Of a stretch of DNA of 64,000 nucleotides, positions 31,688 to 55,838 are shown one piece after another. The notes below the pieces were generated by a model that worked only from the letters and a program-made list of their open reading frames with translations, was not told the origin of the DNA and searched no databases. Source of the DNA: Bacteroidia bacterium (GTDB taxonomy: Bacteria; Bacteroidota; Ignavibacteria; SZUA-365); the NCBI GenBank assembly GCA_027493955.1, contig JAOSJT010000001.1, forward strand, positions 3,459,131-3,523,130, given 5' to 3'. Numbering within the stretch: position 1 is the first letter of the stretch; every line of letters begins with the position of its first letter. The position numbers and the translations under genes were made by a program.

Positions 31688-31716
31688 GTTAAACGTGAAA
31701 CGTTAAAGGTTAAACG
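31688..31716. repeat. GTTAAACG-type repeat, copy 1
   Basis: A 29-bp AT-rich stretch built from GTTAAACG/GTTAAAGG units. It differs at two positions from a 29-bp copy at 55810-55838. It lies in the 606-bp intergenic space 31468-32073, which otherwise holds the hairpin at 31988 and no convincing gene. Confidence 0.7.
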
Positions 31717-38127: not shown

Positions 38128-41100
38128 TTACTTCAATGTTAAAATTCGCGCGAAGCCTGTGTACTCGCCCGCCCGTAACGCACAGGAGTACACCCCGGAC
38201 TGGAGTCCGGATAAGTCTACAGGAAGAACGAATAGCCCCTTGTCGCGGTAGCCATCGTATAGGGTGCGCAATTCACGGCCGTCAACGGTCAATAGAACGA
38301 TTTTCAGATGCATCGCTTCGGGAAGCATCATGCTGACGGCTGTCGTCGGATTCGCGGGATTGGGATGTGTCGTCATCTGAATCAGCGTTCCCGGCAGAGC
38401 AACATCCGCGGTGTGGTCCCGCCGTTTTGGCATGATGCCCGATTTCCTGCAGCGGTGGTATGCCCGTCGCTCCGTGCGCGCAAGTCGCAGAGACGATGAG
38501 TCCAGCCCCGCCGCGTTCATGGCGATAATGGTCTCGTCGATGGCGGCGGAGTCGAGCTTGATGAAGCTATTGCACAAGCGGGCATGCAGACTGTTGCGGT
38601 ATGCCGCAGTGTTGCCATAGGAACGCGCGAGCATATCGTAATGCATATCCGCGGAGTCCGGGTATCCGGCGAAGGTAAAGTACACCGCCTGCAACGCCAC
38701 GAGATCGCCTGCGAACGGTGCGGAAATGTTCGTCTGTTGTCTGCGTACGTATTGGAGCAAACGGTTGCGGCTGGCCTGCGTACTGTCCGGGAATTCGCGC
38801 AGATGGAACAGTTCCATCTTCATCAATTCCCGCAGCAGTGTTGCGCGAGCGGCGCTTGTGGTGGTGTTCATTATCGCGGAATCAAGCAACGAGTACACTT
38901 CCGTCATGCGCCCCGCGCGCGCGTAGTCGGCGAGCGTCGCGCGTGTGGGAGCACCAGTGAGCATGGGCGCGCTACGCTTCTGCAGGATGTTGCATTCCCA
39001 CTCCGTCGCCTGCGCGACGGCGGAGGTTGCGAGATACGGATTCCAGTCGATGGACCCCTGATTCACCTCCGGGAACATGCCAGGATCGGGATTGCCCGTC
39101 AGCCAATAGTTGTTCACCGCCTGGGCGATGGAGCTGCCGTGAGTGCGTACGCGCGGAACGGCGGAGGACGTGTGTCCGATGTCGTTGCCGCAGCCATGCT
39201 GCGGCGATATTTGAAGCAGTCGCGATCCTTGCGTGAGATCGATCTGTATATCGCCATTTTGCGAAATAAGATTGAGGCCATCACCATACTTGCCGAGACT
39301 GATGTCGCTGTTGTCCGCGAACACCCCTTCGAAGGCATTTCCGTACAATACGGACTGCTGCATTTCCACAACGGTTCCGTCAAGATGCGCTCCGAGTCCG
39401 CGCAAATTACCGCTTGCCTCCAGTCCGATGATGTCGATCTCGCTGCTGACCGTGGTGACGCCCGTCCACCAGTCGTCGCCCGTCGTGCTGCAGCGAATAT
39501 CGACATACGATGTTCCTGCGCCGGGCTGCAGAAAAATTCCGTCGCCCTTTTTGTCGGCTTTGTTCTGTCGCAAAATATTGCAGTTGGAAATGCGGTTTTG
39601 CGAATGCGCCGCCTCGTAAAAGTGCACCCCGGACCCCTGATACACCGGGTCGCAGTACACTTTTTCTATATCCACGTAGCTCAAATCGCACAGCGCATTA
39701 TCGCCGACGACGAGTATGCCTTCCCATTCGTCGGTGGCGTTCAGACCCGTGACAAGCACGAACTGCATGCGTAGCAGCGACTGCGTGTTAAACTCCATAC
39801 GATCACGGAATTTGAGAACGCAACGGTCGACTTCATCTTCTCCAACAACAATGAACGATGCATTATCCGTTACATTGATGTGTGGCAGCGCGTTCAAAGT
39901 GATTGCGCCCCGTGCATCAAACACCCCGCTGCCTGCTACGAGTATGTCGTCGAGCAACTGATCAAATGAAAATGCGCAGCCCGAGCCGCGGAGCCTGAGC
40001 GCACCCTGAACGAGAATGGAGTGACTGACACCGGTTTGCAGATAGTTGAATCCGAAGGTGCCGCAGCCTTCCAGCGTAACGTCCGATCCGGAGGCAATGA
40101 CCAGGTCGCCGGCAACATGGATATTGGGGGTGATTATCGTCCCGCTGCCGCGCAGTCCATCCGAACTTTCCATCAGCAGCTCACCCGTTCCCTCAAAGAC
40201 AATCGTCCCGCCGTCGAGTACGAGAGCCCCTTCGTCGCGCAGGTACAGTTTCGCTCCGTTCTCGACGTACACATGCGCTCCCGCACCAATGGTCAGTGTC
40301 GAGTACACGTGAAAGCCCGCGCCAGCCCGGATGTGCATGACGTTATCAACCGTCAAATCCTCGGTGAGGAGGTTCGACGCCGCGCGAAGGAGACAAAATT
40401 CCCCGGCCGGCAAGCGCGAGGTCTTGACCCCATTGGGTGGAATCACCTCGATCTCGTGACTTTCGACATCCATGAAGAATAGCGATGTGTCACTCTCGAA
40501 GGTCAGCTCGATGATTCGGTCACCCTTCGAGTTCTCCATCGTACGTTTATTGACGACAAATACGAACTCTTCATTTGATGCATCATGGAAATTCGCGAGC
40601 TGTACATACACCGTTGTATCTGGAACTCCAGCTTCAGGTCTTGCGCTTACCGCTGCACATTTCGCATTTCGATTGTGCTGGAGGATGATTTGCTCATCGA
40701 GATCGAAATATCCTCCCTCCCAAGTGTCCTCCCAGGTAAGATTCAGGAAATGATCACCCAAGACGCCTCTGAGCCGTGGGACGATGCTTATTCTAAGTGA
40801 GTCCCTCGTCCTGTCTCGCCAGGTCCAGGGTGCATACTGATCGCCTATAAGGCCTGTGTAATCCTCATCACCAAGCACGATATGCGCGACGATGGCCTTG
40901 GCTCCGTATGATAAGGCAATACCAGTATTTGCCTTGATCTCCTCGTGTCGTGGAAATCGGGTTTGTACAGCAGCACTGGCAGGCTGCCCGTGTGTTTGAA
41001 TCACCGGCCAAAATTCTTTGCCCGCTAGCCCATCGCGCACCGTTGTGGCGAGAGGCCTGTAATTCGCGGCGGCTGCTTGAATCCCAGCCTGTGCATGCCA

Positions 41101-42306
41101 CGTTTGCGGACCATCGTCAAAAACAGGATGTAATATATCCGGATCCCAGTGGAAAGCCCATCCGGTGACCGACATTTCCTTTATCCCGGCGAGTTTGTGG
41201 TAACCCCAGCGGTATCTCCGGTCGGTAGTGAGGTCGATGTAGAATGAGAACCCGGTGGCGGCGGAAGCGAGTTCATCGGCAATGAGACCATTGACGAACC
41301 CAAGATTGTAAAACTCCGGATACGATGTTTCGTCATTGGTGAACAGTTTGCCGATGTTATTCCTCCTGTCACCCAGGCCATTATACCAGGCGATTGACGA
41401 TCTGATCTGGGTTTCCATTGCGGCATCGAACAATACCTCCTTGGAACATTTGTTGGACACCTGCACCCAATCGATCGCCGCGCCGACGTCTCCTTCCCAG
41501 ATGACTTCGATATCTTTGTCGTTGTTGTAGCTGGAGTTTGTCATGCTGATCGGCATTGTCACTATTTGCCAATCGGTCGTCGGCAGGAATGCGCCGGGGG
41601 AAGTACCCGGATACTCAAACGTCACACTCCCCGCATTGAACCAGAATCCATCGATTTCGTATCGAAAGCGCACGGTGTACACCGATACACTTGACGATGG
41701 CACCTGGGCAAGCTTGACTCTGATTGACACCCATGTTATATCCTGTAGCCTCAGATCCCGCAGTGGGCTCGGCAAATGATCGTTTGTTGTGGGATCAGAG
41801 GCCACCACACCTTCGGAGTGTTTGCCATATTCGCTTACTATCGCATTCAACGTTTCGTCGAATCTGGTGAAAGGGGTGACATCTCCACCGGGAATCGCAG
41901 TGACATCACCATAGTTATCATCATGAATCACAAAATCAAAATCGCTCTCTGCTTGCAGCCGCAACGCGAAAGAGCCACGGACGTATCGGCCAAGGAAGCT
42001 CGCTATCGAACTGATGGATCGGTTTGATCCCGGATAATAGGTTCTGCATTCCCGGTAGGGTGCATTCAGATGGTTCATCTGCCGTTCCACGATGTATTTG
42101 TAGCCGGCATGGTCGAGAATGGCTTCCGTGGTCTCATCCACTTCGTGTAGATTCACCTTGAGCCAGTTGAATCCCAAAGGATCAATTTCTGTCCAAGGGA
42201 CAGCATTGGGAGCTTTCCCGCTGAATTCACTCCCATCGTCCCTGTTCGCCCAGTCTCCGACGACGGGGAATTCAGGGGTTTGCGATGTTGCGACAGAGCA
42301 CAACAT
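38128..42306 (-). CDS. Giant T9SS-secreted beta-helix protein with (CT)n tract in its signal peptide
   Basis: The open frame gives 1392 residues from an ATG at 42306, but that start leaves only a stub of signal peptide (MLCSVATSQTPEF) and has no SD. A better ATG at 42349 with GAGG upstream encodes MKPVLSLSLSLS and is shifted by the CT tract in this assembly. With one extra CT it would read on into LTLMLCSVATSQ. The body has a ~650-residue N-terminal region of unknown fold, a long right-handed beta-helix (THVYVENGAKLYLRDEGALVLDGGTI-like rungs) and a helical region (ADYARAGRMTEVYSLLDSA). It ends in a sorting domain (THPNPANPTT...TVDGRELRTL...VYSCALRAG). It is a paralog of the gene at 26388. Confidence 0.82.
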   Translation of the reverse strand: MLCSVATSQTPEFPVVGDWANRDDGSEFSGKAPNAVPWTEIDPLGFNWLKVNLHEVDETTEAILDHAGYKYIVERQMNHLNAPYRECRTYYPGSNRSISSIASFLGRYVRGSFALRLQAESDFDFVIHDDNYGDVTAIPGGDVTPFTRFDETLNAIVSEYGKHSEGVVASDPTTNDHLPSPLRDLRLQDITWVSIRVKLAQVPSSSVSVYTVRFRYEIDGFWFNAGSVTFEYPGTSPGAFLPTTDWQIVTMPISMTNSSYNNDKDIEVIWEGDVGAAIDWVQVSNKCSKEVLFDAAMETQIRSSIAWYNGLGDRRNNIGKLFTNDETSYPEFYNLGFVNGLIADELASAATGFSFYIDLTTDRRYRWGYHKLAGIKEMSVTGWAFHWDPDILHPVFDDGPQTWHAQAGIQAAAANYRPLATTVRDGLAGKEFWPVIQTHGQPASAAVQTRFPRHEEIKANTGIALSYGAKAIVAHIVLGDEDYTGLIGDQYAPWTWRDRTRDSLRISIVPRLRGVLGDHFLNLTWEDTWEGGYFDLDEQIILQHNRNAKCAAVSARPEAGVPDTTVYVQLANFHDASNEEFVFVVNKRTMENSKGDRIIELTFESDTSLFFMDVESHEIEVIPPNGVKTSRLPAGEFCLLRAASNLLTEDLTVDNVMHIRAGAGFHVYSTLTIGAGAHVYVENGAKLYLRDEGALVLDGGTIVFEGTGELLMESSDGLRGSGTIITPNIHVAGDLVIASGSDVTLEGCGTFGFNYLQTGVSHSILVQGALRLRGSGCAFSFDQLLDDILVAGSGVFDARGAITLNALPHINVTDNASFIVVGEDEVDRCVLKFRDRMEFNTQSLLRMQFVLVTGLNATDEWEGILVVGDNALCDLSYVDIEKVYCDPVYQGSGVHFYEAAHSQNRISNCNILRQNKADKKGDGIFLQPGAGTSYVDIRCSTTGDDWWTGVTTVSSEIDIIGLEASGNLRGLGAHLDGTVVEMQQSVLYGNAFEGVFADNSDISLGKYGDGLNLISQNGDIQIDLTQGSRLLQISPQHGCGNDIGHTSSAVPRVRTHGSSIAQAVNNYWLTGNPDPGMFPEVNQGSIDWNPYLATSAVAQATEWECNILQKRSAPMLTGAPTRATLADYARAGRMTEVYSLLDSAIMNTTTSAARATLLRELMKMELFHLREFPDSTQASRNRLLQYVRRQQTNISAPFAGDLVALQAVYFTFAGYPDSADMHYDMLARSYGNTAAYRNSLHARLCNSFIKLDSAAIDETIIAMNAAGLDSSSLRLARTERRAYHRCRKSGIMPKRRDHTADVALPGTLIQMTTHPNPANPTTAVSMMLPEAMHLKIVLLTVDGRELRTLYDGYRDKGLFVLPVDLSGLQSGVYSCALRAGEYTGFARILTLK

Positions 42307-42313
42307 TAATGTA

Positions 42314-42338
42314 AGAGAGAGAGAGAGAGAGAGAGAGA
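42314..42338 (-). repeat. (CT)12 dinucleotide tract inside a signal-peptide coding region
   Basis: 25 nt of uninterrupted TC/CT on the coding strand, 12 bp after the ATG at 42349. The distance from that ATG to the long frame's ATG at 42306 is 43 nt, i.e. out of frame. A gain of one CT unit (or a loss of two) brings them into register. Confidence 0.95.
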
Positions 42339-42378
42339 ACAGGTTTCATGGCAACCTCGCTTTGGATGAGTGACGGCG

Positions 42379-42401
42379 GCGCCGGCCCCCATGGCCGGCG
42401 C
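42379..42401 (-). promoter_or_regulatory. GC-rich hairpin upstream of the phase-variable gene
   Basis: A perfect inverted repeat GCGCCGGCC / GGCCGGCGC with a 5-nt loop, 30 bp upstream of the ATG at 42349 and probably in the leader. It lies in the 466-bp divergent space shared with the first subtilase gene. I see no other feature there beyond AT-rich sequence around 42590-42640 that may hold promoters. Confidence 0.4.
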
Positions 42402-42815
42402 TTACGAATGTATTGCAAGGACTGAAACTGTCGATCTCTCCGTGGAATGCCTCAACGCCAATGTCGCGCACGGTGTGACGGCAACGACCCGCGCCGCGTG
42501 CTACCCCGTTCTTCCTGCCTGTTTCACCGTTCATGGCAATTCCACCGTATCCAGACGAGAATGCTCGCGGCATAATACGCAATCATTTTCGCAATATCAA
42601 GCGATAGCGGACAGAAATATCATATTCGGATGTAGCATGTCCGCTATATGGAATCCGATAGTCGATATTGGGCAACCTCGACTTCCAGAGCGGGGTCGCG
42701 GAGCGAGCGGAACAAGCGTTTTCGATGGTCAGCGCCTTCCGTACCAACAAATAGTGTTTTCCGCTGTATATTTCGGGATATCGTGCATCTACCCATTATT
42801 CACACAGGTATGCCC

Positions 42816-55809: not shown

Positions 55810-55838
55810 GTTAAACGTTAAACGTTAAAAGTTAAACG
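55810..55838. repeat. GTTAAACG-type repeat, copy 2
   Basis: A 29-bp run of GTTAAACG/GTTAAAAG units, 27 of 29 positions identical to the copy at 31688-31716. It lies just upstream of hemL. Confidence 0.7.

Follow-up and report, generated by a model that had tools for sequence, protein, structure and literature searches.

A run of twelve CT units lies inside the predicted signal peptide of a putative type IX (T9SS) cargo gene of an uncultured Bacteroidota bacterium. The gene is in the window, by which we mean the whole stretch of 64,000 nucleotides that was analysed, and a change in the number of units shifts the reading frame of an intact 1392-codon gene. We consider it likely that this is a contingency locus, in which slipped-strand mispairing within the signal-peptide sequence causes translational phase variation. 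A preliminary description of the window had proposed such a switch, and the comparative evidence strongly supports the proposal. We favor phase variation because the frame arithmetic fits, the repeat is an outlier in its genome, the start is conserved, and the 1392 codons are intact despite the OFF phase; in addition, analogous loci elsewhere differ in unit number and phase, a G11 run in the same genome appears to be a second case, and the ortholog of the cargo gene has a G10 run in its putative promoter.

Reading frames at the repeat

The gene is encoded on the minus strand, and its features are collected in Table 1. The ATG at 42349-42347 is followed by codons for MKPV and then by 25 nt of T(CT)12 that are 100% pure. 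In the assembled phase, translation from this ATG leaves the long frame and stops after 25 codons. The long frame opens at the ATG at 42306, which has no Shine-Dalgarno sequence, and a start there would drop the signal peptide. One CT unit more or two fewer (13 or 10 units) joins the upstream start to the long frame, giving a protein of 1407 or 1405 aa that begins with MKPVLSLSLSLSLTLMLCSVATS and continues after the predicted cleavage site with QTPEFPVVGDWANRD... (QTPEF...); 7 or 16 units are in frame as well. These were the central claims of the preliminary description, from the GAGG and ATG to the two in-frame alternatives, and all of them were confirmed.

Table 1. Features of the cargo gene and its start region, in window positions.
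Feature	Position	Strand	Remark
Shine-Dalgarno-like GAGG	42355..42358	-	5 nt upstream of ATG 42349
T(CT)12, proposed slippage switch	42314..42338	-	within signal-peptide-coding region
OFF-phase frame as assembled, MKPVLSLSLSLSYINVVLCRNIANP	42275..42349	-	stop at 42274-42272
Predicted signal peptide MKPV(LS)nLTLMLCSVATS, then Q	42281..42349	-	readable in ON phase only (13 or 10 units)
Intact cargo frame, 1392 codons, poor internal ATG to stop	38128..42306	-	
Putative divergent T9SS type A C-terminal sorting domain of cargo	38131..38379	-	
Promoter-like TTGATA-17-TATTAT of cargo gene	42572..42600	-	consensus match only

We assigned the signal peptide from its composition, its cleavage-site pattern and the ortholog described below. 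The cargo has this predicted Sec signal peptide in the ON phase only, and the CT run lies within it, as in a switch of the oipA type. Cleavage after ATS would leave Q at position +1, which fits the Q-rule of Bacteroidetes (PMC5837995); the signal peptide proposed in the preliminary description holds up. A CTG start just 5' of the run was also considered, and it would give a signal peptide without a positive n-region. We judged it unlikely because the Shine-Dalgarno spacing suits ATG 42349.

Under the proposed mechanism, replication slippage would add or remove CT units in the core of the signal peptide. With 3n+1 units (7, 10, 13, 16) the ribosome would read MKPV-(LS)n-LTLMLCSVATS, pass the cleavage site before Q, and continue into the ~1400-aa protein, which would be exported by Sec and then brought to the cell surface by the type IX system, with pyroglutamyl-TPEFPVVGDWANR as its mature N-terminus. 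Any other number of units would yield a short peptide at whose end translation ceases, and no surface protein. Because a signal-peptide core tolerates Leu-Ser repeats, each in-frame length should work, and the assembly would represent a cell, or a consensus, in the OFF phase. We infer that slippage takes place here in living cells, that the product is exported and that it has a role at the surface.

Two promoter-like consensus matches were found upstream, against 0.3 in shuffled sequences, and the spacer of the site assigned to the cargo gene is free of repeats. The presumed 5' UTR contains a perfect 9-bp hairpin, GCGCCGGCC-ATGGG-GGCCGGCGC, at window positions 42379-42401, about 30 nt before the cargo start; set against shuffles, its folding is unremarkable for this composition (z -1.3).

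An outlier among the repeats of its genome

Counts of dinucleotide runs over 1.26 Mb of the genome are 2655 for 3 units, 205 for 4, 23 for 5 and 2 for 6, after which comes the single run of 12 units. By extrapolation, about 2e-6 runs of at least 12 units would be expected genome-wide, and no other (CT)10 or longer is present in the whole 5.24 Mb genome. The CT run is not a chance repeat. Its 12 pure units also exceed the PhasomeIt criterion for a hypermutable dinucleotide, which is at least 8 units (PMC5953494).

Repeats of another kind are present in the window, namely GTTAAAC heptamer arrays at positions 31688-31716 and 55810-55838. Heptamer tandem repeats of at least three units occur 20 times in 1.26 Mb, and those of 4-, 5-, 6- and 8-mers not at all. 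Heptamer arrays of different sequence are known in some Bacteroidetes (PMC4679880).

The cargo protein and its T9SS context

The cargo protein (P0001) contains no domain from Pfam or NCBIfam. The sorting domain is defined by the models TIGR04183 and PF18962; the last ~80 residues reach 13.2 bits against TIGR04183, below its cut-off of 23. When the tail was compared profile to profile with T9SS tails, including those of the neighboring genes, the match had a probability of 96.4% and an E value of 1.2e-9. With the caveat of the low model score, we regard the C-terminus as a putative divergent T9SS type A tail. The same genome, an assembly that is 100% complete and in one contig, encodes SprA (1050 bits, 2505 aa) and at least 150 type A tails, and the genes flanking the cargo encode subtilases and an FG-GAP protein with T9SS tails. 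The earlier designation of a giant T9SS cargo stands, subject to the low TIGR04183 score. A structure predicted for residues 1-669 from an alignment of two sequences had a pLDDT of 30.5.

An ortholog with the same start and a different repeat

One full-length ortholog, syntenic and 46% identical, is present in another genus of the same family (G005, JACZJN010000039.1, 'Bacteroidetes bacterium isolate MAG20'). It was the only match in a scan of genome contigs, which found no conspecific genome. The start of the gene 3' of it resembles, by eye, that of the FG-GAP neighbor in the window. The ortholog begins in a GGTTGCC-ATG context identical to that of the window gene, and because both position and context of the start are shared, translation very probably begins at ATG 42349. 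The ortholog encodes MIRFILITMLLLNSSLLHA followed across the cleavage site by QEFAVVGDWANRD, which would be an ordinary, constitutive signal peptide without a repeat; its LLHA and Q align with the ATS and Q of the window protein. The comparison shows the CT run as a lineage-specific feature of the predicted signal peptide. Homologs that lack the repeat and start elsewhere had been named in the preliminary description as evidence against a switch: this homolog does lack the repeat, but it starts in the same place. We count the absence of the CT run from the closest ortholog against the switch reading.

Upstream of the ortholog (L005:1173-1202), a G10 run occupies part of the 18-nt spacer between TTGACA and TATTTT in a sigma-70-like promoter. 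Transcriptional slippage switches typically have this arrangement, which suggests that selection favors switching of this cargo.

CT runs in signal peptides of other Bacteroidota

We scanned 391 genomes of the class, added start-anchored scans of class and phylum, and read the loci one by one. CT runs in signal peptides recur among unrelated surface genes of other Bacteroidota, and orthologs and paralogs of such genes differ in unit number. In two species of one genus (G205 and G181), a protein with a T9SS-like tail has a tract of 27 nt (ON) in one and 29 nt (OFF) in the other; the proteins are 92% identical, and one CT is the sole internal indel in a 95%-identical alignment of ~430 bp. The complete genome G048 contains three paralogs with 13, 11 and 18 units (OFF, ON and OFF), the first and second of which are 90% identical. 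A related lipoprotein from three species of a further genus has 13 (ON), 14 (OFF) and 14 (OFF) units counted from the first ATG, and one of the three genes has an alternative ATG in the open frame. The gene for a T9SS metalloprotease has 8 units in G571, and that for its relative has 15.5 in G662; both are OFF. Further cases are paralogs in G140 and G680 and loci in G226, G306, G312 and G293.

A CT run after ATGA occurs in 17 genomes, no more than the 18 of the GA control. An enrichment argument built on genome counts (17 versus 5, with a backwards control) was dropped for this reason, and we turned to the open reading frames and signal peptides of the loci. At 14 of 17 CT loci, and at 3 of 12 GA loci, one of the phases reads on for at least 100 codons past the tract (p 0.006). 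A hydrophobic N-terminus is encoded at 11 of 17 versus 0 of 12 (p 0.0004), a difference partly favored by Leu-Ser coding itself. By hand tally, about 3 of 21 loci are in frame, where random phase would give 7 (p 0.046); this slight deficit, and a genome count no higher than that of GA, weigh against the switch reading.

Poly-G runs in signal peptides and promoter spacers

The genome of the window contains a G11 run at position 1,473,695 (G000:C1:1473695-1473705; L185:13695-13705). It falls in the predicted signal peptide, MKSIIALFIIILGGG-VILPTQQLFAQ, of an M6-type protease of 1161/1162 aa whose T9SS tail scores 28.4 bits against TIGR04183. The protease gene is OFF at the assembled G11 and would be ON at 10 or 13. 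Its homolog in G005 (L259; 30% identity over 1032 aa) also has G11 in the signal peptide and is ON. In G001 (L266), a TTGACA-15-TATTAT spacer with G13 precedes the gene for a 754-aa secreted protein. Homopolymer switches in promoter spacers operate in Neisseria porA and fetA; the G10 at the G005 ortholog and the G13 in G001 resemble them, and the promoter-like site of the window gene itself has no repeat. Distinct poly-G runs of at least 10 number 37 in the family, only a minority of them in places of these kinds, and this part of the case is suggestive, not statistical.

Taking CT and poly-G loci together, we lean, by a modest degree, toward the wider reading that Bacteroidota repeatedly evolve slippage switches in signal peptides. 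Random variation from cell to cell would then affect the T9SS cargo and the surface lipoproteins of these mostly uncultured bacteria, and one cargo gene could be switched by different means in different genera, either by a CT run in the signal peptide or by a G run in the promoter spacer.

Other accounts of the out-of-frame repeat

The assembly may have miscounted the repeat, the population being uniformly at 13 (or 10) units, with the gene simply ON and the run passive. The assembly is one consensus, and long-read consensus does err at simple repeats. However, the long open frames of SprA (2505 aa) and of T9SS cargo in this complete, single-contig genome indicate that frameshift errors are not rampant, and many independently made assemblies contain out-of-frame runs where close relatives are in frame. 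A CT run of 26-27 nt would, moreover, be hypermutable even at 13 units. We regard a miscount as improbable.

Still less probable, in our estimation, is an accidental CT expansion that turned the gene off and started its decay into a pseudogene. The OFF phase of the assembly and the lack of a repeat in the sole ortholog would fit this account, but no other lesion is present along the 1392 downstream codons, and signal-peptide CT runs recur in unrelated genes and are kept, with altered unit number, in orthologs and paralogs. We give the least credence to translation of the out-of-frame gene without genetic switching (by ribosomal slippage on the CT run, from ATG 42306 or from a CTG): the surplus of out-of-frame states among CT loci would suit it, but we know of no slippery motif for CT runs, ATG 42306 lacks both a Shine-Dalgarno sequence and the signal peptide, and ON and OFF states are both present among close relatives.

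Relation to known switches and significance

The closest counterpart to the proposed phase variation is oipA of Helicobacter pylori, in which CT repeats in the signal-peptide-coding 5' end have been demonstrated to switch the gene (PMC10564699). The two loci are alike in repeat unit, place in the signal peptide, frame logic, restoration of ON by unit number, and a surface or outer-membrane protein as the product. They differ in that oipA encodes a Hop outer-membrane barrel in a gastric member of the Campylobacterota, whereas the window gene would encode a ~1400-aa T9SS cargo in a member of the Bacteroidota, and switching has been demonstrated for oipA, whereas here we infer it. The opa genes of Neisseria have pentamer repeats in the signal peptide (PMC13183285). 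They share translational switching by repeat number there, and the presence in one genome of several paralogs, few of them in frame (compare G048 and G140); unlike the dinucleotide here, their repeat is a pentamer, and protein and phylum are unrelated.

The placing of the repeat had been thought new for a T9SS cargo. CT repeats in a signal-peptide core were already described for oipA, and the mechanism itself is known; what looks new is to find it in T9SS cargo and in the Bacteroidota. A literature search on phase variation with T9SS or Bacteroidetes repeats, which covered few subscription journals, returned nothing comparable. Recurrence across surface proteins of Bacteroidota is a more interesting claim than the window locus. 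It suggests that diversification of T9SS surface cargo and lipoproteins in free-living, uncultured Bacteroidota relies on the bet-hedging trick of pathogens; phages, grazers or competitors would then be suspected as the driver. Gene callers misread genes of this kind, as the OFF phase hides the signal peptide from annotation and the start looks wrong. With the cases listed above, long-read metagenomes that already exist would allow a direct test of the idea.

Other CT runs in the class

A large proportion of the (CT)9 or longer runs in the class are non-coding, several of them beside TGGCACG motifs, and lie outside the finding. At L035-L040, L044 and L117-L120, in several families of the class, non-coding CT runs come right after a recurrent TGGCACGATTTTTA-like motif, and we query whether this motif is a sigma-54-like -24 element. 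At L099-L103 (G312, G226, G306 and G140), secreted proteins of 440-1012 aa without a Pfam domain have a QV.I.(E/D)K.VI-like motif directly after the signal peptide; their CT runs are all out of frame, G140 has several such proteins per genome, and the proteins perhaps constitute a separate phase-variable surface family.
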